In this document: positions 406 to 19,330 of the stretch, piece after piece
Layout: every line of letters begins with the position of its first letter
Position numbering within the stretch: the stretch's first letter is position 1
Source of the DNA: a virus
Length of the DNA: 23,042 bases
Direction: 5' to 3' (one strand)
Virus record (IMG/VR): IMGVR_UViG_3300032282_000745
Span: 1-23,042 of that record
Made by a program: the position numbers and the translations under genes
The notes under the pieces: model-generated
What the model was told of the DNA's origin: nothing
Databases searched by the model: none
What the model saw: the letters and a program-made list of their open reading frames with translations, nothing else

Positions 406-612
406 ATGATCCGTGAATCAATTGAATGGCTGAAGACTGTTTACAAGATACCCAGTGCCGAAGTGCTGGCGCTGCGTGAACTTGAGGAGGCCAAGCGCAA
501 GTTGCTCGAGGCACAGTCAGGCCGCGACTACGCCATATCGATGTGCAACTATTACGAAACCAAGATCAAACGCTTGACCGCGTATTTGCACAACGCAACG
601 GAGGTGAAATGA
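406..612 (+). CDS. Small helical/coiled-coil phage protein, unknown function
   Basis: A 68-residue protein. The start at 406 is chosen over an in-frame TTG at 367 because AAAGGAG (391-397) lies eight bases before this ATG. The product is mostly charged and helical, with a heptad-like central region (ALRELEEAKRKLLEAQSGRD, about residues 23-42) followed by a second amphipathic helix with the stretch YYETKIKRLTAYL. Similar short proteins sit next to helicase or replication genes in many phages, but no biochemical function is known to me. The last codons overlap the next start in an ATGA arrangement (609-612), so the two small genes are likely translationally coupled. No cysteine cluster, membrane segment or signal peptide is visible. 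Confidence 0.75.
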   Translation: MIRESIEWLKTVYKIPSAEVLALRELEEAKRKLLEAQSGRDYAISMCNYYETKIKRLTAYLHNATEVK

Positions 613-800
613 AATGCCCCGTGTGCGGAACACCGACAATAGTGCTCGAGACTCGGAGTGGTCGCCGACGCAGGGAGTGCATGAATCTGCACCGGTTTGT
701 TACCCAAGAAAGCGTCGTGAAAATTGGCCCTTCAGAATCTACGAAGAAGACGGCAGAATGTACCAAAACGTCGCACCTCGCCGCCGTAAAGTGGATTTAG
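609..800 (+). CDS. NrdR-like small zinc-ribbon protein
   Basis: A 63-residue protein starting in an ATGA overlap with the preceding gene; GGAGG (600-604) is the SD. Its N-terminus MKCPVCGTPTIVLETR, then RRRREC at residues 19-24, then HRFVTQE, closely follows the zinc ribbon of the ribonucleotide reductase repressor NrdR (CPxCG, VxETR, RRRRxC, RFxTxE). Probable zinc ligands are C3, C6, C24 and H28; the last replaces the usual fourth cysteine. The ATP-cone of true NrdR is missing, so it cannot sense dNTP levels the same way. It is better called a stand-alone zinc ribbon that may bind DNA or a protein partner. After residue 35 the sequence becomes unremarkable, while another frame looks more protein-like (see findings). 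It ends 31 bases before the oppositely oriented holin gene. Confidence 0.75.
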   Translation: MKCPVCGTPTIVLETRSGRRRRECMNLHRFVTQESVVKIGPSESTKKTAECTKTSHLAAVKWI

Positions 801-1596: not shown

Positions 1597-3798
1597 TTAC
1601 TCCTGAGTTTCAATAATTCGTACTGGCTGCTTCGCCAGCGCGTTGCTGTTGTTTCGCTCAGGTGCAAGCGCGTTGACACCGGCAGCGGTGGTGCCGCGCA
1701 CTATGGCTTTGGCACCCTGGCTCCATTGTGACGGATCAGAGATCAGTTTCAACACGCGGCTGCGCTCCTCAGCAGGCAAACGCTCAAGCAGGTTCTGAGC
1801 GCCCTCGGGCGACTGCATCGCTTCAGCTAACACCTTCATGCTTTTGCTGCCCACAGCTTTTTCTAATTCGCTGATTGTTTTGTTGGCAGCAGCGCCCCAA
1901 AAACTTAACCAAGAAGGTAAACGAAACCTTGATGTGTTTTCGCGCAGTAGCGTGGTCAGCGCTTTCTCACCATCGCTGGCTTGCTTGCTTGCGGCAAGCT
2001 GGGCAATCCGTTTCTCAGCCTGGGCCTGGAGAACCGACAGCGTGTTTTCGCTGAGTTCGGTGGCAATGTTGTAGTTGCCAGGGCCGAGGAACTTCTCGAC
2101 CACTTCGGGTGATTCGTTTTGCACCAAACGAACAAAAGCATCCTTGTCCGTCTTCCACAACTGCATAGCTTCACCGGTCAGCTTCTTCTCAGCAATCTGC
2201 TGCATACCCTTGGCGTAGTCGGTCAGGTACTGGCGATACCCAGTGCCGCCTGCTGCCTCGATGGCATCGATCAGCGTGGGTTTGAGTTTGCCCATGACTT
2301 CGGCTGCAAGGTTGCGTTGGGTCGTGGCATCCACGCCTGGGCGCAACTGCTGGATCGCAGCGTTGATCGAGTTTTTGCGAATGGCATCAAGCGCACGAGC
2401 GTCAATGATGCCACCGCTACCGGTCCACTTGGTGATGTCGTCGGCCACGTTCTTAACCGCGCCCAGCAGCAGATCGTTGCCTGCAAACTCGGGGTTGTTC
2501 GCAATCGCACGAACACTGCCAATCACCTCGTCGCCTTTGAGCGGCTTGATGCCGACAGAACGCATGGCATCAGCCGCGCCTTGGGCAAACCGAGCGCCTT
2601 GGCCCAGATCGAGCGACGCATCAGCAGCCTTGGATGCCCATTCGTCAGCCATGCGGGCCAGATCGCCCTTGTAGGTGTATTTGGTCAAGCCGACTGGCAG
2701 ATTACCTTTGATTAAATCAAGTCGGGCAGAAGCCTCGGCAATCTTGCCAGCGTTGATCAAGTCACGAACTTTCTGCACCTCGGCAGCAGCCTCGGCGCTC
2801 AACTTGCCAGCCTGCGCCTCGTAGTCAGCCACCGCTTTGCCCAAGTTTGCGCGGTTCAAAGAAGCCTCACGCACCGGCCCTTGGGTAGTGTTGAGTGCCT
2901 CTTTCATGGCAGTCGTTGTGCCTCGGGCTTCCGCAGCCGTTGTACCACCAACAAGTTTTGCCAAGGCGTTGACACCTTCATCATGGCTCATTGTTGCAAA
3001 TTTGTTCAGATATTGGGCACCACTTGGGCTTTTTTCCAATGCATCGCGCACAAGCGCTTGCCATGCGGGATTTTGAATTTTTGCAGTAATTTCGGCAACA
3101 CTGGCGTTTGGAGAAGCATTGCGAAGTGCATTCAAGGTTTGGTCAAGGTCTTGACCCAAAGACGCACGAGCCAAAGTCGCAGCCTTGTTGGCCGGGATGT
3201 TGCGAATGTCCATGACCTTGCCAACGACCTTGCCGATCACTGGACCAAGGACTCGACCACCCGCTTCAAAGGTTGCGCCCTCAACCACATTGCGAACAGG
3301 CTCAGTGACGAGCGCAGCGCCGGTTCTGGGCTGCTTTATACCCATCGCCACATCAGCGGCTTCCAAGGCTTCTTTGGCGATGCCGTAACCCAAGCCAGCG
3401 CCAGCAACACCACCGGCAGCGGTGCCCACTGGGCCAGCGCCAAACGTGCCTGCTGCACCGCCCAGCAGCCCGCCACCAATTGCACCACCGGCTTCCACCA
3501 AAGGCGCAGCATACGGGCGCACGGCCTGGTAGATGCGCTGACCAGTGGTCAGTTCTTGACGGTTGCCAGGGATCGCGTCAGGCGATACCTGGGCGACAGA
3601 TGGCTGCATCGACTGGGGCAGCGGTGCAGCTTTTGGGGTAGCCACACCAAACCGCTCACGAATGGCATCTTGCGTTGCTGGGTTCGCTTTGGTGAAGTTC
3701 GGGTCTTGCGCCGAGAACTTGTCAAAGATGGCCCGCTTCGTTGCCTCGTTGGCGTTGACGTAGTTGGGGTCGGTAAGGATCGAGGCGAGGTCTGCCAT
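1597..3798 (-). CDS. Large DNA-ejection/internal virion protein (P22 gp16 position)
   Basis: A 733-residue protein in the place of the last P22 ejection protein. The N-terminus holds two copies of a DPN-F/Y-xx-AN-x-AT motif (residues 10-28 and 32-50). A Gly/Ala-rich, glycine-zipper-like hydrophobic stretch follows (about 97-145, including GGAIGGGLLGG), then a long Ala-rich helical body. Ejection proteins leave the capsid before the DNA and help it cross the cell envelope; the hydrophobic glycine-rich part would suit membrane insertion. No lytic transglycosylase catalytic motif was recognised. Its SD AAGGAG overlaps the stop codon of the upstream gene (TAAGGAG). The specific equivalence to P22 gp16 is inferred from order and size, not from sequence identity I can measure. 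Confidence 0.7.
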   Translation of the reverse strand: MADLASILTDPNYVNANEATKRAIFDKFSAQDPNFTKANPATQDAIRERFGVATPKAAPLPQSMQPSVAQVSPDAIPGNRQELTTGQRIYQAVRPYAAPLVEAGGAIGGGLLGGAAGTFGAGPVGTAAGGVAGAGLGYGIAKEALEAADVAMGIKQPRTGAALVTEPVRNVVEGATFEAGGRVLGPVIGKVVGKVMDIRNIPANKAATLARASLGQDLDQTLNALRNASPNASVAEITAKIQNPAWQALVRDALEKSPSGAQYLNKFATMSHDEGVNALAKLVGGTTAAEARGTTTAMKEALNTTQGPVREASLNRANLGKAVADYEAQAGKLSAEAAAEVQKVRDLINAGKIAEASARLDLIKGNLPVGLTKYTYKGDLARMADEWASKAADASLDLGQGARFAQGAADAMRSVGIKPLKGDEVIGSVRAIANNPEFAGNDLLLGAVKNVADDITKWTGSGGIIDARALDAIRKNSINAAIQQLRPGVDATTQRNLAAEVMGKLKPTLIDAIEAAGGTGYRQYLTDYAKGMQQIAEKKLTGEAMQLWKTDKDAFVRLVQNESPEVVEKFLGPGNYNIATELSENTLSVLQAQAEKRIAQLAASKQASDGEKALTTLLRENTSRFRLPSWLSFWGAAANKTISELEKAVGSKSMKVLAEAMQSPEGAQNLLERLPAEERSRVLKLISDPSQWSQGAKAIVRGTTAAGVNALAPERNNSNALAKQPVRIIETQE

Positions 3799-10826: not shown

Positions 10827-10849
10827 AAATAGGGGCCGAAGCCCCCATT
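10827..10849 (-). terminator. Hairpin 2 with TTCG loop, intergenic
   Basis: The minus strand contains GGGGC-TTCG-GCCCC (10832-10845) with three more A/T pairs beyond one mismatch, followed by TATTTTGAAAGG. It separates the 10854-11267 and 10453-10812 genes and ends just before the SD of the latter. The core is identical to hairpins 1 and 3. It may be a partial terminator or processing/stability element. Confidence 0.6.
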
Positions 10850-11321: not shown

Positions 11322-12524
11322 TCAGCCCCACAAACGGCAAGCCATTTGCGGACGAATGACGCTGTAACCGTACAGAACGTCAATACGGCAAGGCATCCGG
11401 TCATTGTTGATATCGTACTGGCGAACCACACGCATGGAGATGCCGTTGTGGACAGCGCGAGCGGCCATATCGACACCCTGGGGCAGCAACAGGTCAGCCG
11501 TAGCAAACGTGATCGCGTCCTTGTGGTAGACCAAGTTCTGAGCATAGGCGCTGGCAGAAGAACCGAGCATCGTCACGACGGCAGAAGCCTGTGGGAATGC
11601 GTCGATGGTAGCCAGGGCTTGATCAGCGGTGTACATCGCGGGGCTGACAGTCAGCGTAGCGGTGGACGAGCCAGAAGCGGCAGCGGTCACCACGAATTGC
11701 TGGAGCGAACCAGTGGACTCGCGGGTCTGCGGGTTCACTGCGTACACACCGGCCACAGTGAACACATCGCCCACGTTCCAGGTTTTGCTGGAGCCGGTGA
11801 AGCTGATGCCCAAGGTGGTAGAACCTTGGGTGGTCACGGTGCTGGTCACGGTGATGCCAGTGCCCCACGAGCCAGTGGTGTGCTGCTTGATCGACTGAGA
11901 CATATTGATCTCGTCGAAGCCCAACACGCCCATGCCCATCATGCCGTTCTTGAACTGGCGGCTGATGGTGTCGGTGGGGTTGAACAGACCTTTCATGCCT
12001 TCGACCAAACCAGCGTTAGCGGCGGGGTTGACGGTGGCATAACGGGGCGACATGACAGCAGCGGCTTCGTTCAGCTTCTGCTGCGCTTGCAACAGAACCA
12101 AAGAAGTAGCGGGAGTCGTGCCGGGGGTGCCCACGGACTGATAAATGCTCTTGAAGCTGTTTGCCACATCAGCGTCGATGGACGATGCCAACTGGCTGAT
12201 ACGAGGCTTCAACACACGCTCTGCGAAGTCGTCCAATTGCATGGTCAATTCAGCAGAGGTGAAGTTCACACCGATGTGCTTCTGGCTGGAAACAGTCAGA
12301 GTGGTGTACTGCTCGTTGTCGTCCTGAACTTGCAGAGCGGCACCGTCAGTCACCAGAGCGCGGTCGGGCAAACGGATACGGAGGGTCGAACCAATCTTGG
12401 CACCTTCGACAGCGAAGCTGTCGTCGTACTGACGGTTCACGTTGCGGGTGAGCACCAGATTGTTCTCGAGGATTTCGAGAGCCTTTCGGGTGATCATGTC
12501 AATGGTAAGAATACTATTCGCCAT
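11322..12524 (-). CDS. Major capsid (coat) protein, P22 gp5-like
   Basis: A 400-residue protein starting MANSILTIDMITRKALEILE, then NNLVLTRNVNRQYDDSF and GSTLRIRLPDRA, the typical N-terminal arm and E-loop style of P22-type coat proteins with the HK97 fold. The core continues with FAERVLKPRISQLASSIDAD. A Thr/Ser/Val-rich beta insertion (about residues 222-325) fits the extra I-domain that marks P22 coat. The C-terminus has RVVRQYDINNDRMPCRIDVL. It assembles with the scaffold directly upstream into procapsids. A strong SD AAAGGA (TCCTTT at 12533-12538 on the plus strand) precedes the start. The close scaffold-coat order supports the call. Confidence 0.92.
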   Translation of the reverse strand: MANSILTIDMITRKALEILENNLVLTRNVNRQYDDSFAVEGAKIGSTLRIRLPDRALVTDGAALQVQDDNEQYTTLTVSSQKHIGVNFTSAELTMQLDDFAERVLKPRISQLASSIDADVANSFKSIYQSVGTPGTTPATSLVLLQAQQKLNEAAAVMSPRYATVNPAANAGLVEGMKGLFNPTDTISRQFKNGMMGMGVLGFDEINMSQSIKQHTTGSWGTGITVTSTVTTQGSTTLGISFTGSSKTWNVGDVFTVAGVYAVNPQTRESTGSLQQFVVTAAASGSSTATLTVSPAMYTADQALATIDAFPQASAVVTMLGSSASAYAQNLVYHKDAITFATADLLLPQGVDMAARAVHNGISMRVVRQYDINNDRMPCRIDVLYGYSVIRPQMACRLWG

Positions 12525-12545: not shown

Positions 12546-13349
12546 TTAGCGGTTCATCTGTGCTTGCATCTTCCGCAACTGACGGGCGCGTTCAGCTTCA
12601 ATCCATTCCGACGCACTCATGGTCTTCGTAGAACGAGGATCAGTCGTGTCGTATGACGGGTTACCGCTGGTTCGTGCTGTTACAGGTGTGATAGGTGCTG
12701 GCGCAGACGTTGTGGGTTTGACAACGGGGTTGCTGCCAAGTTTGGCTTCAATTTTCCCGATCTCTCTTGCCTGCAAAATAGGGGACAAACGAGAAATGCG
12801 GTCCGCTTCTTTCGGATTCGATCCAAACCAGTAGGCCAGATCGGGTCCAATTTCAGAAGCCTGAATCGCTTCGGCCATCGAGTCGGTGATTCTGACGCTG
12901 GGGTTGTAGGCGACTTGTTCAAAGTCATCGTACTTGTCCCGTGCGGCTTCTTCACGTTCTTGATACGCGGCTTGCGTCGCAGCCTGCTGCTTCTGGCGTT
13001 CACGAATCTCGAGAAGCTGATGGGCCTTGCGCTCGGCCAATGCGTCAGCATAGGCTTCGTCAGACTCAAAAGCACTGCGATCCAGATCGCCTTTGGGCAT
13101 CGACTGCGCGGTTTGCACTTCTGCCAACCGTGCTTGCTGCTCCCGTTCCCATTTGCGCTGTTCTCTTGCGAGGCGCTTGCCGATGGCAGCATCGAGTTCT
13201 TCCTGAGTGAATGTCTTCGTCGCAGGTTGTTGCTCGGGCTGATTCTCAGCTACTTCCGGCGCATTTTGTGCAATATCCGTGGTGGCCGTCACCTCGGTTG
13301 CTGGCGCGGAGTCTACTTCCGCTAAGGCTTGTTGGACTTCTTCAGTCAT
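12546..13349 (-). CDS. Scaffolding protein, P22 gp8-like
   Basis: A 267-residue, highly charged and helical protein directly before the coat gene. It has an acidic, disordered N-terminus (residues 1-45), then a long coiled-coil (about 47-140: FTQEELDAAIGKRLAREQRK, ERKAHQLLEIRERQKQQAAT). A more globular middle contains DLAYWFGSNPKEADRI. A short basic helix closes the chain (ASEWIEAERARQLRKMQAQ). In P22 the basic C-terminal helix-turn-helix of gp8 binds coat subunits, and the same type of ending is seen here. Length is close to P22's. The ATG at 13349 has only a weak SD, AAAGA, lying in a small inverted repeat, which may control translation. It appears to be the first gene after an internal promoter. 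Confidence 0.87.
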   Translation of the reverse strand: MTEEVQQALAEVDSAPATEVTATTDIAQNAPEVAENQPEQQPATKTFTQEELDAAIGKRLAREQRKWEREQQARLAEVQTAQSMPKGDLDRSAFESDEAYADALAERKAHQLLEIRERQKQQAATQAAYQEREEAARDKYDDFEQVAYNPSVRITDSMAEAIQASEIGPDLAYWFGSNPKEADRISRLSPILQAREIGKIEAKLGSNPVVKPTTSAPAPITPVTARTSGNPSYDTTDPRSTKTMSASEWIEAERARQLRKMQAQMNR

Positions 13350-13355
13350 TTTGTC

Positions 13356-13387
13356 GATTCTTTAGAATCCCTGGTCAACTGGACCAG
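13356..13387 (-). promoter_or_regulatory. Two tandem inverted repeats in the scaffold 5' leader
   Basis: Between the promoter below and the scaffold ATG the minus strand carries CTGGTC-CAGTT-GACCAG (13371-13387), then GATTC-TAAA-GAATC (13356-13369), which ends six bases before the ATG. As RNA these would form two small adjacent hairpins that fill most of the leader, and the second holds the only SD-like purines. This would suit translational control or a protein-binding site. Inference only. Confidence 0.5.
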
Positions 13388-13398
13388 TACAGTTTTTT

Positions 13399-13426
13399 AT
13401 CTTACACCGACTTGCGCCGGTGTCAA
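13399..13426 (-). promoter_or_regulatory. Sigma70-like promoter for the scaffold/coat genes
   Basis: On the minus strand TTGACA (13426-13421) is followed after 16 bases by TAAGAT (13404-13399) and an A-run. The inverted repeat ACACCG / CGGTGT (13404-13409 and 13418-13423) spans the spacer and touches both boxes, so a repressor or activator could bind there. It lies between the small 13437-13607 gene and scaffold, giving the capsid genes their own start within the long operon. Confidence 0.6.
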
Positions 13427-13436
13427 GGTAGCAATA

Positions 13437-13607
13437 TCAGCTTGGCTCCAAAATTGAATTTCCTTCTTCAATCCATTTTTGAAAAGCCAAAAAATCATCG
13501 TCGATTACAGAGTCGCGCCCAACAACAAGCATTGATTTGCGTGATTTTCCGTCTTCATCAATGATGTGAACAATTTGCCTTTCGTCATCTACCCATTGGT
13601 ATTTCAT
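13437..13607 (-). CDS. 56-residue protein overlapping the tail-fibre stop
   Basis: A small protein, MKYQWVDDERQIVHIIDEDG then KSRKSMLVVG and FLAFQKWIEEGN, starting in an ATGA overlap with the fibre gene (13604-13607). Acidic and compact, with a beta start and a helical end, and a codon pattern that looks like a real gene. Tiny genes of this sort often follow fibre genes in environmental phages; a fibre chaperone, assembly or capping role is possible but unproven. It ends 11 bases before the -35 box of the scaffold promoter, so it closes the fibre island. No SD apart from translational coupling is obvious. Confidence 0.7.
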   Translation of the reverse strand: MKYQWVDDERQIVHIIDEDGKSRKSMLVVGRDSVIDDDFLAFQKWIEEGNSILEPS

Positions 13608-14668
13608 AGCTCAACACTCCATGCAAGATAGGGGGTAACTCCAATATTTGCGCCATGCGCGGTTCCAGAATAGGCGGTTAACCCTGAAGCAACAGTAAAA
13701 CCAGTTCTCCCAAAGGACACGCCTGCCGCGTTAAGTATCGGAACTGCTGAACAATCGGTAGCAATAGCACCGCCACCAAATACACGGTAATCTGTTGCCG
13801 TGCCCGTTTGCTCCAGCGCAGTTGGGGCTATTCGCATAGTAACGGGAAATGGCGTAATTGCTCTGCTAACGGTCGTATTAACAGCGTAACCCGATGACCC
13901 ATCAAGACTGGCGGCAGCCATTGTCACCCTGTAATAATACCGTTGGCATAACGCCAACTGTGTTGAATAAGGCCGTTGCTCAAACGCCGTGGCAATTGAC
14001 CCCGATTCAAGTTGCACATTTTCAAATTGCAACGTATTTGTGGCAGTAAGTGCGCCGCAAGAAAACTCAAGAGCGATTCCGTTTGCAGCATTTGAACCTG
14101 CACTAAAAGAGAATGAATAGTTTGTGGCTGTGCTTGTTATGGTAAGTGTGCCTGTTGCAATTTGTGTTTTAGATGAGAATGTGTCTGCGGAATTTGCATA
14201 ATAAGCCGTCCAAGTCAACGTAGTAATAGATGAACTAGAAACTGTCAATGAGCCAACAACAGTTTTGCTCACTAAATCAGCGCAATTGAGCGATTCAATA
14301 CGTTGACCAAAGATTAAACCAGTATTGCTTGCAGCGCCGGTAAATTTGTAAGCGTATTGATTTGGCGATGTTCCAGAAACACGCCGCCCTGTAATGTTTG
14401 CGCCAGTACACGAGACGTACCATCTATCAACGCAATAAGCCACAGCCGCAGCAGCGGTAAATGTTTGCGATGCGCCGCTATTACGCTGATCCACCGCCAT
14501 GTTGCCGTTAATAAGTCTGTTTCTAAACAGCGCACCAGACCCGCCAAAGTCAAGTAACGATGCAATTGATGTTTGAACAGTTGTAGAAGATTGAACAATT
14601 GGCAAAACTTCACTGCCCGCCAAAGGGCGTGAAGAATTTGACAGTTGAGAAATCTTTTTGTCAGCCAT
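13604..14668 (-). CDS. Tail fibre / adhesin with carbohydrate-binding-type domain
   Basis: A 354-residue protein. The N-terminus MADKKISQLSNSSRPLAGSE then VLPIVQSSTTVQTSIASLL is a common virion-anchoring module of phage fibres. Next comes NRLINGNMAVDQRNSG (about residues 50-65) and YCVDRWYV, the N-x-x-x-NG-M-x-x-x-QR ... DRW pattern found in many phage proteins with a jelly-roll, carbohydrate-binding-like domain. A beta-rich body follows with YSFSFSAGSNAANGIALEFS and the sequence FENVQLESGSIATAFEQRPY typical of such fibres, then a C-terminal beta domain ending YLAWSVEL. Probably binds cell-surface glycan. Base composition is poorer in GC than the neighbouring assembly genes, as expected for exchanged adhesins. 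The SD is weak. Confidence 0.78.
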   Translation of the reverse strand: MADKKISQLSNSSRPLAGSEVLPIVQSSTTVQTSIASLLDFGGSGALFRNRLINGNMAVDQRNSGASQTFTAAAAVAYCVDRWYVSCTGANITGRRVSGTSPNQYAYKFTGAASNTGLIFGQRIESLNCADLVSKTVVGSLTVSSSSITTLTWTAYYANSADTFSSKTQIATGTLTITSTATNYSFSFSAGSNAANGIALEFSCGALTATNTLQFENVQLESGSIATAFEQRPYSTQLALCQRYYYRVTMAAASLDGSSGYAVNTTVSRAITPFPVTMRIAPTALEQTGTATDYRVFGGGAIATDCSAVPILNAAGVSFGRTGFTVASGLTAYSGTAHGANIGVTPYLAWSVEL

Positions 14669-14677
14669 GATCTAATC

Positions 14678-16846
14678 TTAGTTCACGCTTCGGGCAATTT
14701 CGTACCATTTGCCATCGGCTTTTTGAATCAACGTCAAAGTGTCGGTGGCTTTCATCACAAAATTTGCGGAACCCGACAAAAAGATGTTGGTGCCGTCAGT
14801 GATCGTGATTGCGTGTTCCGAAACAAGCGTGAATTGTTGTCCAACCGTTCCATTGGTGAAGTTTGTGATTGTGGTTGTGCCGCCAGTAAGACCTTGAGTT
14901 AAACCATAAACGCTCGGAGTTGCGCTATTAGAAAGCGTGGACAACCCCGTGTTGGGCTGAATGTACGGCTCGTACACGATACCAGGAAGCGCCACAAAAC
15001 CCGTAATGTAGAACGGATCAGTGTTGGCAACCGTGGTGCTAAACGTAAATGCTTGGTTGCCTGTATCGTAGAAACCAATGCAACGACCAATACTAAACCA
15101 CTTCCATTGCGAATTAGCCGAAATGGAATTCACTTCTTGCGATGTGTAATATTTCGGCATATTGACCGATGAAAGCAAAGGCCAGAATGTGCTTGGTGTT
15201 GCGCTACTGGTTTTCAAAAACCACCCATAGGTATGGAAATTCTTTGCAAACGCATAGACAGCGTTGGTGGATTGAATTTGTACAGTGCCTGTCGTGGTCG
15301 GCGTAACCTTGTACACCGGCACATTACCTGCGGGACTTGCAATCTGCTCAACGGTCACTGTGCAATTAGTCGTGCTCCAAGTATTAATTTGCGAATACGG
15401 GAATACGTTGGAAACAGCAGTGTTTCCAAATTCCACATATTGATCGTTGTTATCGTGAACGTAAAAAGGCGTGGTCGAGGGGTTTGAATAGCAATTCGTA
15501 ATCAGCGGTGCGCTTGCAAATTCACCGACAGAAATTTTGCCGCCGCCTTTAAAATCACAAGCATCAATGTGGCAGTTTGTACCAGCCAAAATTTGAATCT
15601 TTGGACCTGTCCCCGTTACGCCCCACAACTCTGTGCTGCGAATTACAGTAGCTTGCGGAACCGTTACAAGGGACGCACCGTCACCTACCTGAATGTGGGC
15701 TTTGTTGCCTTCCAACCAACAACCGTCAATTTCAACGGTATTTGATTCGCCAAGTATGGCAATACCAACGCCATTTCCAGTTGGGAAATACTGACCCGTT
15801 GATTCAATGTCTACATCAAGAATTGACACGCGATACACTGAAGTATCAAGTTTGATGCCGTAGTTTTTGTTTTGAACAATTTTGCCGCCCTGGATGTACG
15901 ACATGTAAGAGTTGACCGTTTCGGTTGTTCCGAAAGGGCCATAATCCATGCGAATGCCGCAATCTTGGTTGTACTCGGCTTCGCAATCGTGCATGGTCGC
16001 GGTCAACGCACCGTAAAAACGGAAACCAGACAGACTGAACCAACCCGCATACACGCGATTGCAGATCATGCGCTGACTGCTGTAACAGGCTAGACCATAG
16101 GTGCCGCGCACTGCTTCGTTTTGCGTAACTAAACCGCCCAACAAAGTCATGTCGGAAATAGTGATATGGCCTTGATAGTCAACATCCAAATCGCCCGTCG
16201 AGGTGTACAACAGGAAAGCATTAGTTGTTTGTATCAGGCGCGTTCCTTGACCTAAATTTTCTGTGTAAGAACTAACATATCCAACTTTTCCCGCTCCTTG
16301 CAAATTGGAATAAGGGCGAACGGTCAACGTACCGTTGATCTTGTAATTGCCCGCAGGAAAATAGACGTTGTAACTGTTGTCAAGCGCGGCTTGAATTGCT
16401 GCGGTGTCATCAGTAACACCATCACCAACAGCGCCAAAATCTTTAACGCTAACGTATTGCGCTAGTTTTGCCTCGACGGTGGTAGCAACAGATTGCGTAA
16501 AAGGCGGATCATAAGTTACCTGAGAAGAATCAATCGGTAACGTAATGCTACTGATCCCATTAACATTGTCGTAGGTGGCGATCAAAACATCGTTGCTGTC
16601 TTTGAGCACGAACTTGTAGATCAAACCATCAGTCAACCAAATTTCACCACTGTTTGACACGCGGCCAGCAGCATCTAACACAATCGGATTGGTCCAAGGC
16701 ACGTTGCCCGCGGACGTGGTGTAGGTGGCTTGCGGCGTGGTCGTGCCAGCGGCGTAGGTGTACAGCTTGCCGCCAGTCAGCACCGCACCAGAGTTGGTGA
16801 AAAATTGGGCCGCAACGCCGCCCACGGGAGAGAGATTGACGGCCAT
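14678..16846 (-). CDS. Tailspike with parallel beta-helix (pectate-lyase-like)
   Basis: A 722-residue protein. Residues 1-100 (SPVGGVAAQFFTNSGAVLTG, LYTYAAGTTTPQATYTT, PIVLDAAGRVSNSGEIWLTD) form a head/tail-binding module widespread in podovirus spikes. VSVKDFGAVGDGVTDDTAAI (132-151) is the signature entry of the Pectate_lyase_3 type right-handed beta-helix. About 300 residues of helix rungs follow. A separate C-terminal part ends with GQQFTLVSEHAITITDGTNI and KADGKWYEIARS, a small beta domain like those in other proteins of this window. Tailspikes bind and often cleave O-antigen or capsule; the catalytic residues cannot be assigned from sequence alone. TGGAG precedes the start. Confidence 0.88.
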   Translation of the reverse strand: MAVNLSPVGGVAAQFFTNSGAVLTGGKLYTYAAGTTTPQATYTTSAGNVPWTNPIVLDAAGRVSNSGEIWLTDGLIYKFVLKDSNDVLIATYDNVNGISSITLPIDSSQVTYDPPFTQSVATTVEAKLAQYVSVKDFGAVGDGVTDDTAAIQAALDNSYNVYFPAGNYKINGTLTVRPYSNLQGAGKVGYVSSYTENLGQGTRLIQTTNAFLLYTSTGDLDVDYQGHITISDMTLLGGLVTQNEAVRGTYGLACYSSQRMICNRVYAGWFSLSGFRFYGALTATMHDCEAEYNQDCGIRMDYGPFGTTETVNSYMSYIQGGKIVQNKNYGIKLDTSVYRVSILDVDIESTGQYFPTGNGVGIAILGESNTVEIDGCWLEGNKAHIQVGDGASLVTVPQATVIRSTELWGVTGTGPKIQILAGTNCHIDACDFKGGGKISVGEFASAPLITNCYSNPSTTPFYVHDNNDQYVEFGNTAVSNVFPYSQINTWSTTNCTVTVEQIASPAGNVPVYKVTPTTTGTVQIQSTNAVYAFAKNFHTYGWFLKTSSATPSTFWPLLSSVNMPKYYTSQEVNSISANSQWKWFSIGRCIGFYDTGNQAFTFSTTVANTDPFYITGFVALPGIVYEPYIQPNTGLSTLSNSATPSVYGLTQGLTGGTTTITNFTNGTVGQQFTLVSEHAITITDGTNIFLSGSANFVMKATDTLTLIQKADGKWYEIARSVN

Positions 16847-16863
16847 TGTTTACTCCATCAAGA

Positions 16864-17352
16864 TCAAGCGCTCAAAGCGGCAACTTTGTCTTGGAATGCT
16901 TTAACGCGGGCTTCATGGGCTGCAACTTGAGCAGTCAGGTCGGCGCGTTGCTTGTTAATATCGGCTTGAGTGCTGGCCTGATCGGCCTCTCGTGCAGCCA
17001 CTTGTTTTTCGCGGGCATCTAATGCCTTCTCACGCGCAGCCACTTGCTTGCCTGCGGCATCAGCGTCAGCCATCATGCGTTTGGCGTTGTCGGCATCGAC
17101 TTGGGCCGCTGCTTTGATCTCATCAGCCGTGCGCTTTGCGTCAGCACGGACAGCCAGCGCCTCGGCTTGCGCGGACTCGAGTTCAGCCTTGGCTTTGGCG
17201 CGGTCGGCTGCGGCATCTTCAACCGCAGACAACGAACCCTGGCGCTTTGCCAGTTCGTCGCGCACTTTCAGCAACTGCACCAAGTCCTTGGGCAACTGCT
17301 TGGTGATGTACTCGATGGGGTCGGTTGCGGGCGTGTCGTTGGAAATGATCAT
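16864..17352 (-). CDS. Alanine-rich coiled-coil protein, unknown
   Basis: A 162-residue protein. After a short N-terminus (IEYITKQLPKDLVQLLKVRD) nearly the whole chain is a long charged helix. A region rich in Ala, Lys, Asp and Glu (about 45-110, with AKAELESAQAEALAVRADAK) is followed by a near-repeat AAREKALDAREKQVAAREAD (about 106-125), then QADINKQRADLTAQVAAHEA. It looks like a rod-like trimer or dimer, perhaps a spacer, assembly chaperone or length ruler for the tailspike encoded just downstream. GAGG lies before the ATG. No catalytic motif, membrane helix or signal is seen. Function inferred only from position between the repeat protein and the tailspike. Confidence 0.65.
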   Translation of the reverse strand: MIISNDTPATDPIEYITKQLPKDLVQLLKVRDELAKRQGSLSAVEDAAADRAKAKAELESAQAEALAVRADAKRTADEIKAAAQVDADNAKRMMADADAAGKQVAAREKALDAREKQVAAREADQASTQADINKQRADLTAQVAAHEARVKAFQDKVAALSA

Positions 17353-17362
17353 GGCAACCTCA

Positions 17363-17668
17363 TCAAGAATAGTAGGTGATGTTTAGTTTTGCGCCGCCAG
17401 TTTGCTCGATGAACTGAATCTGGGAGATGTCGCCATCATATTGCAACGTCACGCCAGCAGCCAGGGGCATGCCAACACTTGCGGTCGGGGCCACGCCATC
17501 ATCACGCCAACGCACGGCCTGAGCCTCGGGAATGATGATTGCGATGCGGGGAGTGCCAGCAAGACCGTTCAGGTCTTTTTGCGGCACAGTCAGTTTGGTC
17601 GCTGCACTCAGACTCGTGATCTGCTGGTAACCCAGCACCGAGGTAATTGCTTTGAGGTTGATTGCCAT
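17363..17668 (-). CDS. Small conserved-type phage structural protein, unknown
   Basis: A 101-residue protein with beta-strand-like pattern: TKLTVPQKDLNGLAGTPRIA then IIIPEAQAVRWRDDG, then a hydrophobic loop, then QIQFIEQTGGAKLNITYYS. The text AVRWRDDGVAPTASVGMPL is typical of small proteins found in many phage tail/neck regions, where they are thought to be virion parts. The ATG overlaps the stop of the repeat-protein gene by one base (TGATG), and AAGGAG for this gene is inside the end of that gene, so the two should be translated together. Its partner and place in the virion are unknown. Confidence 0.65.
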   Translation of the reverse strand: MAINLKAITSVLGYQQITSLSAATKLTVPQKDLNGLAGTPRIAIIIPEAQAVRWRDDGVAPTASVGMPLAAGVTLQYDGDISQIQFIEQTGGAKLNITYYS

Positions 17669-18552
17669 CAGAATCTCCTTCGTTCAGTGAACGATCTTAA
17701 CTTAATAAACGGATTTTCGACAGAGGGTGTCGGCTGACCGCCAATGACAATCGCTGCCTCATTTCCAACCACCGAGTACGCCCCCGGCAAAGCTGAGATG
17801 ACTCGATCAACCGAGATTGTGGCCGATTCACCCAAATACGCGTACACCCCAAATTCGCATGTGATGTTGCGGACATACGCAATTGTCGCATTTTGTCCGG
17901 CGACTGCATACGCCCCCGGATCGGCAAACACAACTCGCGTTTTGAGGATTGATGCTGACTGACCGCTGACAGCATAGCTGCCTGGGGCGGCTGTGACCAG
18001 TTTTGACCGCAAAAGGTCAGCAGATTGCCCTGTGACGGCATAGCTGCCCGAGGCGGCTGTGATGTTGTGCCCGCGCCTGAGCGTGGCAGGCTGGCCGTTG
18101 ATGGTGTAGCTGCCTGAGTCAGCGGTGACCTGCTTGGACCGGTAGATGCTGGCGCTTTGGCCGGTGACGACATAGCTGCCCGAGTCGGCTGCAAGCGCCT
18201 TGGAGCGCAGGATTGTGGCATCCTGGCCCGTGACGGCATAGCTACCGGCTGCGGCTGCAAGAGCGCGGCTTCGATAAATGCTGGCAGACTGTCCTGTAAC
18301 TGCATAACTGCCAGCGGCGGCAGATATGACCTTGCTTCGGGTGATTGTGGCGCTCTGACCGGTGACCGAGTACGTTCCATAAGCCGCTGTGAGTGAGCGG
18401 TTTTTGGCGACAGTTGCAGACTGGCCCGTGACGGTGTACGTGCCATACGCTGCAACAACAATGTACTGAAGCGGTTCAAGGTCTAGCTTCCCTCCATCTT
18501 CCTGAACAAGATAGGAGCCATCCTCGCACAGAAGATAGGCTACTAATCCCAT
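17668..18552 (-). CDS. 22-residue-repeat beta protein (fibre-like), about 11 repeats
   Basis: A 294-residue protein. The N-terminus has LLCEDGSYLVQEDGGKLDLE, a form common in phage repeat proteins. From residue 34 to about 275 it is made of eleven tandem 22-residue units with the pattern A-x-x-G-S/T-Y-x-V-T-G-Q-S-A-T/S-I-x-R-S-K. The centre units are closest to the consensus; the last three diverge (CEFGVYAYLGESATI). The C-terminus IKLRSFTERRRF is basic. Such repeats probably give an elongated beta-solenoid or fibre, suited to surface binding or to a decoration rod. No enzyme motif. It follows the 18555-18953 gene and is coupled to the 17363-17668 gene. The exact function is not known. Confidence 0.72.
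   Translation of the reverse strand: MGLVAYLLCEDGSYLVQEDGGKLDLEPLQYIVVAAYGTYTVTGQSATVAKNRSLTAAYGTYSVTGQSATITRSKVISAAAGSYAVTGQSASIYRSRALAAAAGSYAVTGQDATILRSKALAADSGSYVVTGQSASIYRSKQVTADSGSYTINGQPATLRRGHNITAASGSYAVTGQSADLLRSKLVTAAPGSYAVSGQSASILKTRVVFADPGAYAVAGQNATIAYVRNITCEFGVYAYLGESATISVDRVISALPGAYSVVGNEAAIVIGGQPTPSVENPFIKLRSFTERRRF
17728..18453 (-). repeat. Eleven tandem 66-bp coding repeats
   Basis: The DNA behind the 22-residue units repeats every 66 bases on the minus strand and remains in frame. The words for SYAVTGQSA recur with small base differences (for example GTGACGG/GTAACTG variants on the plus strand), so the array has drifted and is not a recent exact copy. Such arrays may expand or contract by recombination. 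Confidence 0.8.
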
Positions 18553-18554
18553 AC

Positions 18555-18953
18555 TTACGTCGCTTGGAAGACCCCGTTGGTGCCATCCAGCGTCACGGTT
18601 ACGGTTTCACCAGCAGCCACGGCTTGCGAACTGCCATAGTCCCAATATGCCACGTTGGTGCCTGTTGTCGAGTCAACCAAAACAGCATACTGGAAAGAAA
18701 ATCCTGCGCCACTGGCGGTCCAAGCGGTCGGGCTTGACAGCACCAGTTTGTACGTGCCCCCACTTTGGGTGGCACTGACAGTAGCGGCTGCGTTACCACC
18801 GGTCGTGTAACCGTTGCCGTTGGCAACCTCGGTGATCGTGCCAGCAGCTTGGCTGACAGCCGTCGCCAGTTTGATGACCCACGAATCAGAACCCGCGTTG
18901 ATGTTCTCAAACAGGTTTTCAATTGCGGGTTGGAATTTGTTGTAGACGGCCAT
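18555..18953 (-). CDS. Small beta-rich virion protein, unknown
   Basis: A 132-residue protein. It starts MAVYNKFQPAIENLFENINA, then a beta region with VANGNGYTTGGNAAATVSAT, TYKLVLSSPTAWTASGAGFS, VAYWDYGSSQAVAAGETVTV and the end TLDGTNGVFQAT. This arrangement (NKFQPxxE at the start, NGYTxGG, YWDYGSS, DGTNGV) is shared by many phage proteins of unknown structure next to tail or fibre genes and is probably a small jelly-roll or Ig-like virion component. AAGGTGG stands seven bases before the ATG. It is the first gene of the fibre island after the Dps-like gene. The role is inferred from recurrence in such loci rather than any known activity. Confidence 0.68.
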   Translation of the reverse strand: MAVYNKFQPAIENLFENINAGSDSWVIKLATAVSQAAGTITEVANGNGYTTGGNAAATVSATQSGGTYKLVLSSPTAWTASGAGFSFQYAVLVDSTTGTNVAYWDYGSSQAVAAGETVTVTLDGTNGVFQAT

Positions 18954-18964
18954 GACGATCCACC

Positions 18965-19330
18965 TTATGCCAAAAATTTCAACTTGTAAAGTGTCGTCAA
19001 ATACAGTTCAACGATGTTGTCGATCAACTGTTGCAGTGACGTATCTTCCTTTTTTGCCACCTTATATCGCATTTCCTCAACGTCGGCCAAAGACGACTCG
19101 AGGAACTCGATGATGTTGGTGGTTTTCTTGGCCGTCATCAGGCTGATTGGCCCGATGAGGCCGTGACGACCTTGATACGCCTCGGCAAACGCGTCGGCGT
19201 GGTCGATGATGCTGTCGTAGAAGGTATTGAGCGCCATGTGCTTGGAAAAGCTGCGCGTGTTCAAATGCACCGAATGGGCCACATCGCGGGCCAAAAATAA
19301 GGTGCCTACAAAATCGGCTGCGGTACTCAT
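18965..19330 (-). CDS. Dps/ferritin-like helical protein (DUF5856-like)
   Basis: A 121-residue, all-helical protein with HSVHLNTRSFSKHMALNTFY (residues 19-38) and IDHADAFAEAYQGRHG. This recalls the Dps mini-ferritin family, and more closely the phage DUF5856 type. H19, H31, D46 and E50 have the same spacing (12, 15, 4) as the ferroxidase residues H51, H63, D78 and E82 of E. coli Dps; the fifth ligand (D67) would be N35, so iron chemistry may be weakened. It is shorter than Dps (about 167). The start overlaps the portal stop (ATGA) with AAGGGA upstream, so it is co-made with the portal. It may be a virion protein, an iron or DNA binder, or an assembly factor; activity is not shown. Confidence 0.7.
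   Translation of the reverse strand: MSTAADFVGTLFLARDVAHSVHLNTRSFSKHMALNTFYDSIIDHADAFAEAYQGRHGLIGPISLMTAKKTTNIIEFLESSLADVEEMRYKVAKKEDTSLQQLIDNIVELYLTTLYKLKFLA

Follow-up and report, generated by a model that had tools for sequence, protein, structure and literature searches.

A conserved pseudoknot leader before the capsid scaffold gene of P22-type phages, with a probable role in translational control

Our analysis indicates that the short leader preceding the head scaffolding protein gene of this P22-type tailed phage contains a compact H-type pseudoknot followed by a hairpin that holds the Shine-Dalgarno (SD)-like purines, and comparison with relatives suggests that this leader is very probably a real, previously undescribed control element. 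The comparative support for the pseudoknot is unusually clear, covering phages known from metagenomes as well as cultured phages of Vibrio, Shewanella, Thalassomonas and Pseudomonas, and the element is placed at a gene whose dosage governs capsid assembly. From these comparisons, we consider it reasonably probable that the leader is a conserved cis-acting RNA element that sets, and probably regulates, translation of the scaffold gene, with unassembled scaffold protein as a candidate ligand.

The window analyzed here, a 23-kb piece of an IMG/VR record, carries its late genes on the minus strand. These include the genes for the head scaffolding protein (267 aa; 12546-13349; PHROG 8865, E = 7e-31) and for the P22-type major head, or coat, protein (400 aa; 11322-12524; PHROG 283, E = 1e-77). 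The coat genes of relatives are annotated as P22 coat, in agreement with the latter assignment, and a protein-family search matched the portal of the window to PHROG 156. The window therefore resembles P22 in having P22-type portal, scaffold and coat genes; however, the scaffold gene directly follows the portal gene in P22, whereas a tail spike/fibre module and small genes (13437-19330) separate the two in the window. An ORF of 56 aa (13607-13437, minus strand) lies upstream of the scaffold gene, and the 87-nt gap between them (13436-13350) contains both the promoter and the leader element.

The scaffold mRNA leader is 43 nt long (13392-13350, minus strand), and its first 22 nt make up the pseudoknot. 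A preliminary description of this DNA had read the first of two inverted repeats as a simple hairpin; its arms, CTGGTC (13382-13387) and GACCAG (13371-13376), are indeed exactly complementary, but they represent stem 2 only, and the pseudoknot was missed. Judged by its pattern of pairing, this repeat (13371-13392) makes up one half of a compact pseudoknot of the H type, CUG-UA-CUGGUC-CAG-UU-GACCAG. Stem 1 (3 bp) is formed by S1a (CUG, 13390-13392) and S1b (CAG, 13379-13381), which show double changes with each other; stem 2 (6 bp) is formed by S2a (CUGGUC, 13382-13387) and S2b (GACCAG, 13371-13376), for which both the exact repeat and covariation provide evidence. S1b abuts S2a, with S1 directly stacked on S2. 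The loop L1 (UA, 13388-13389) crosses S2 and is TA in 102 of the 117 distinct leaders, and the short L3 (UU, 13377-13378) crosses S1 and mostly has 2 nt in the leaders, with varying letters. The second repeat, GATTCT (13364-13369) and AGAATC (13356-13361), is also exact; as correctly described earlier, it holds the SD-like purines and is separated by 6 nt from the ATG (13349). It forms the hairpin H2 (GAUUCU-AA-AGAAUC, 13356-13369, minus strand; exact repeat and covariation), which starts 1 nt past the pseudoknot and is weak, at about -3.8 kcal/mol. The purines in the window, AAAGAA, are a poor SD; GGA is found in 102 of the 117 distinct leaders. The complete order is CUG UA CUGGUC CAG UU GACCAG G GAUUCU AA AGAAUC GACAAA AUG.

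Within the window alone, neither the leader repeats nor the promoter carry statistical significance, which is supplied by the comparative evidence. Folding of the leader, suggested earlier as a check and run here with a program limited to pseudoknot-free structures, gave an unremarkable energy (z = -1.6, with 15 of 200 shuffles as good). A strict scan of the window found no further pseudoknot copies beyond this one, and a looser scan of the window yielded no further convincing leader. A plus-strand terminator built from the first repeat (CTGGTCAACTGGACCAG then TACAGTTTTTT) was considered and set aside as a coincidence: relatives do not retain its T run, and a plus-strand gene is not indicated either.

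Relatives were drawn from IMG/VR by scaffold or coat protein similarity, with the leader outside the selection criteria, and 57 leaders were aligned with MAFFT without fitting to any structure. Across the scaffold leaders of relatives, the layout S1a(3)-UA-S2a(6)-S1b(3)-N2-S2b(6)-GG-hairpin-ATG is kept while the letters change. In the 57 leaders, compensatory changes occur at 13 of the 14 pairs, 89.7% of the cells are paired, and the covariation score over all pairs is 0.481; shuffled data gave 0.182, and slid partners no more than 0.122. S1 alone is paired in 92% of cells, with 34 cells changed on both sides, and scores 0.493 against 0.204 shuffled (0/500) and at most 0.147 slid; all six S2 pairs show changes on both sides. 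Similarly, when all 1275 column pairs are ordered by APC-corrected G, the pairs of S2 occupy ranks 1, 2, 6, 14 and 16, those of H2 ranks 3, 4 and 21, and those of S1 ranks 8, 17 and 22. Parsimony on the scaffold-protein tree places 18 same-branch double changes in S1, all 18 of which restore pairing (about 3.4 expected), together with 45 in S2 (about 7 expected) and 25 in H2 (about 4.7 expected). The order S1a-S2a-S1b-S2b, with covariation in both helices, is that of an H-type pseudoknot, and the proposal that the leader repeats are conserved as pairing withstood this comparison, given the 13 compensated pairs and the double changes on the tree. The weak spot is pair 5 of S2, which is non-standard, mostly C-A, in about half of the leaders. 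RNAalifold recovered only part of S2 from the alignment, since this program cannot represent pseudoknots and pair 5 is often C-A.

The same changes bear on the idea that the conserved stretch is a recombination linker, a homology joint at module boundaries in which the pairing is incidental. The upstream genes of relatives do differ right up to the element, as would be seen at such a joint; however, a homology joint should keep its letters, and here the letters change and the pairing stays. The compensatory changes have already largely refuted this explanation, and we assign it almost no probability.

The leader is, on the comparative evidence, tightly tied to the start of the scaffold gene. 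Pattern scans of IMG/VR fixed S2 only and left S1 out of the pattern; S1 was perfect in 163 of the 183 distinct scaffold-linked matches, and at least two of its three pairs were present in all of them, where the chance of a perfect S1 is 1 in 64. A strict pseudoknot rule accepted 94 of 117 scaffold leaders; in the controls, it accepted 2-5 of 117 leaders after shuffling and 2 of 252 regions upstream of coat genes. A loose parser was non-discriminating, since it accepted all 117 leaders and, after shuffling, still 112-116 of them. Most genomes searched carry one strong copy, at the scaffold only, and the distance from the end of S2b to the start codon is 17-22 nt in most leaders.

Cultured phages with divergent scaffolds share the same fold with nearly unrelated stem sequences. 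For instance, the scaffold leader of Shewanella phage X14 reads GGC-UA-CCAGUG-GCC-UUU-CACUGG, and the form GGC-UA-CCAGUG-GCC-...-CACUGG is common to X14 and the Vibrio phages FGH, D478, 1.183.O, 1.184.A and 1.211.A. Thalassomonas phage BA3 has CCG-UA-CCAGUG-CGG-UU-CACUGG, Vibrio phage VvAW1 has AGC-UA-CCCAUG-GCU-U-CAUGGG, and Pseudomonas phage PAE2, read by eye, has CCG-ACU-UCCGG-CGG-AA-CCGGA. In the Vibrio, Shewanella and Thalassomonas group the SD likewise lies in a hairpin, CGUUUC/GGAACG or CGUAUA/UAUACG. Unlike the window, P22 has no pseudoknot at this place, gene 8 starting only 13 nt past gene 1; the pseudoknot is also absent from the region upstream of the scaffold in EBPR podovirus 1, and in Xanthomonas phage PBR31 a terminator-like stem was seen and no pseudoknot. 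What lies between the scaffold start and the gene upstream of it differs in type among phages: the window has a promoter and a spacer palindrome, PAE2 (L552) and PBR31 (L399) have an intrinsic-terminator-like stem, which in PAE2 is followed by the pseudoknot, and others have plain hairpins. Rfam contained no relevant family (the best hit, EGFOA-assoc-1, reached 14.7 bits where the threshold is 224.5), and a search of the open literature, with most subscription journals outside its scope, returned no description of a scaffold-leader pseudoknot.

A sigma-70-type promoter, TTGACA-N16-TAAGAT (13399-13426, minus strand; 10/12), is located about 10 nt past the stop of the 56-aa ORF, with the -35 box at 13426-13421, a 16-nt spacer and the -10 box at 13404-13399. 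It is the sole 10/12 match within the 10 kb scanned, where sites of at least 9/12 are not enriched (5 vs 6.3 in shuffles). Promoter-like sites of at least 10/12 occur in 46 of 154 dereplicated homologous leaders, compared with 2.35 in shuffles. The promoter reported earlier just upstream of the leader is thus present and conserved in many relatives, with -35 and -10 hexamers at the 16-18 nt spacing of the sigma-70 type; many other relatives have no strong match. Since the commonest -10 end in the 154 leaders falls 7 nt upstream of S1, the RNA is predicted to begin with the pseudoknot, its 5' end in the window lying at about 13392-13393, at or adjoining S1.

The preliminary description also noted that ACACCG/CGGTGT, an inverted repeat, spans the spacer of the promoter (13404-13423, minus strand; arms 13423-13418 and 13409-13404) and likened it to an operator. 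The repeat is present, and within the clade of the window its arms differ yet stay self-complementary (ACACCG/CGGTGT, ACACCCAG/CTGGGTGT, ACACCC/GGGTGT, ATCTAA/TTAGAT and CCAAA/TTTGG). Such compensation, together with a mild enrichment of hairpin-forming arms immediately 5' of the pseudoknot (25 vs 8 among 154 leaders), would fit control at the DNA level, in which a repressor or activator of scaffold transcription would use the palindrome as its operator. However, the arms share no common sequence, unlike a fixed protein site, and the sequence is not kept among orthologous promoters; the three outer pairs are supplied by the promoter region (ACA of TTGACA on one side, TG and the first T of TAAGAT on the other); and the palindrome is absent from many relatives outside the clade, including many with a good promoter. 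Because the palindrome is partly dictated by the promoter boxes, restricted to the clade and variable in sequence, a fixed-sequence operator appears unlikely. The operator role thus did not hold up as the palindrome itself did, and we regard control of scaffold transcription through this site as highly improbable.

Control of translation initiation is the reading that we favour, and we infer it from the partial hiding of the SD by H2 and from the position of the pseudoknot at the border of the ribosome footprint. In the proposed mechanism, the pseudoknot would border the upstream edge of the ribosome landing site, H2 would partly mask the SD just before the AUG, and the leader would set, and probably regulate, the translation rate of the scaffold. 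On binding to the pseudoknot, a factor would either block the 30S subunit or lock H2. Scaffold is required in large, regulated amounts, and a feedback of the P22 scaffolding protein has reportedly been described genetically by King, Casjens and co-workers. Unassembled scaffold protein is the favoured candidate ligand, which would provide a dosage feedback of the kind described for P22. We consider this specific ligand possible, but less likely than not. A shade more doubtful is a widespread assembly feedback, in which unassembled scaffold would bind the 5' pseudoknot of its own mRNA and lock the SD hairpin, so that scaffold synthesis is halted until new shells form, and would in some phages act on further late genes as well. 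In favour of the mechanism, the C-G pair that involves the SD hardly varies (C39-G46, kept in 53 of 57 leaders) while the outer H2 pairs covary; against it count the poor SD of the window and P22, the phage in which the feedback was described, which is without the leader pseudoknot.

Late genes other than scaffold can likewise have a pseudoknot of this build in front of them. In many relatives one is found upstream of a small PHROG 6228 gene beside the scaffold (L138, about 2827-2860; L074, about 3608-3650; L024, L069, L158, L426, L449 and others), in the forms CCG-UA-CCAGUU-CGG-AC-AACUGG or CCG-UA-CUGGUG-CGG-CC-CACCAG. In these leaders the pseudoknot abuts the upstream stop codon, whichever gene lies there, and is usually followed by a second hairpin, whose arms vary. 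The SD is mostly beyond that hairpin, and a role in hiding the SD, or one limited to the scaffold, is weakened by this. Pseudoknot leaders were also located in lysis regions, one at a membrane-like ORF and one at a holin-like ORF (L206, 2034-2086; L180, 7802-7847, minus strand), and, in a single case, at a small late gene that follows a tail gene (L274, about 600-660, minus strand). These copies argue against a strictly scaffold-only element.

The main rival to translational control is a stabilizing or insulating role, in which the pseudoknot would be a passive, ligand-free 5'-end element that caps the mRNA or marks an intercistronic junction; it would thereby protect late mRNA against decay and insulate the translation of the gene downstream from that of the gene upstream. 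Several observations are consistent with this role: the predicted transcript start is the first base of the pseudoknot in promoter-bearing leaders, the PHROG 6228 copies abut the upstream stop codon with the SD free further downstream, the element stands before several unrelated late genes, and its stem letters drift freely, as in a shape-only element. A passive role nevertheless leaves unexplained that compensatory changes keep the SD hairpin beside the pseudoknot in scaffold leaders and that most genomes have their single strong copy at the scaffold only; we consider it possible, although rather unlikely. That the same build is found at the scaffold, at the PHROG 6228 gene and at some genes of the lysis region could also reflect a translational operator bound by something other than scaffold, either a host protein (a ribosomal or CsrA-like protein) or another phage protein, acting on several late genes. 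The UA of L1, kept in 102 of 117 leaders, may be a recognition feature for such a factor, and VvAW1 encodes a CsrA-type regulator (COG1551, annotated at L545:28277-28489) and has in its scaffold SD hairpin the loop ACAGGAG, a CsrA-like site. However, no candidate regulator common to all these phages was found, and the GGA loop is not conserved across all leaders; an operator of this kind is, in our view, distinctly unlikely. CsrA as a general ligand was rejected, the GGA loop not being general among the leaders.

The literature contains very few regulatory pseudoknots in the mRNA leaders of DNA phages, and a 2010 review knew of one: the gene 32 leader of T4/T2, perhaps the only viral pseudoknot of translational autoregulation (PMC3014915). 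Like that leader, the scaffold leader has an H-type pseudoknot with coaxial stems in the 5' leader upstream of the ribosome-binding site (PMC3014915). The two differ in the gene concerned, gene 32 against a capsid scaffold, and in distance, the gene 32 pseudoknot lying 67 nt upstream and the scaffold pseudoknot about 20 nt from the AUG (PMC3014915). Moreover, gene 32 has an unstructured A+U-rich tract with UUAA repeats to which gp32 binds cooperatively, whereas the scaffold leader has at that place a conserved hairpin holding the SD (PMC3014915). The Escherichia coli rpsO (S15) operator, which is under autogenous translational control, also has a pseudoknot at the ribosome-binding site, although its gene encodes a cellular ribosomal protein (PMC3014915). 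With a 43-nt leader and cultured phages at hand, the old question of how scaffold synthesis is matched to assembly is now testable.

A scan of bacterial chromosomes gave four exact matches, one of which is a phage scaffold leader and the rest chance-like. The former is joined to a betaproteobacterial MAG "chromosome" (CP070643.1), where the phage scaffold leader and gene start contain masked or gap bases, and is possibly a mis-assembly. Finally, downstream of the coat gene in the late operon of the window, a GGGGC-UUCG-GCCCC hairpin (10832-10845, minus strand) resembles a terminator or stabilizer.
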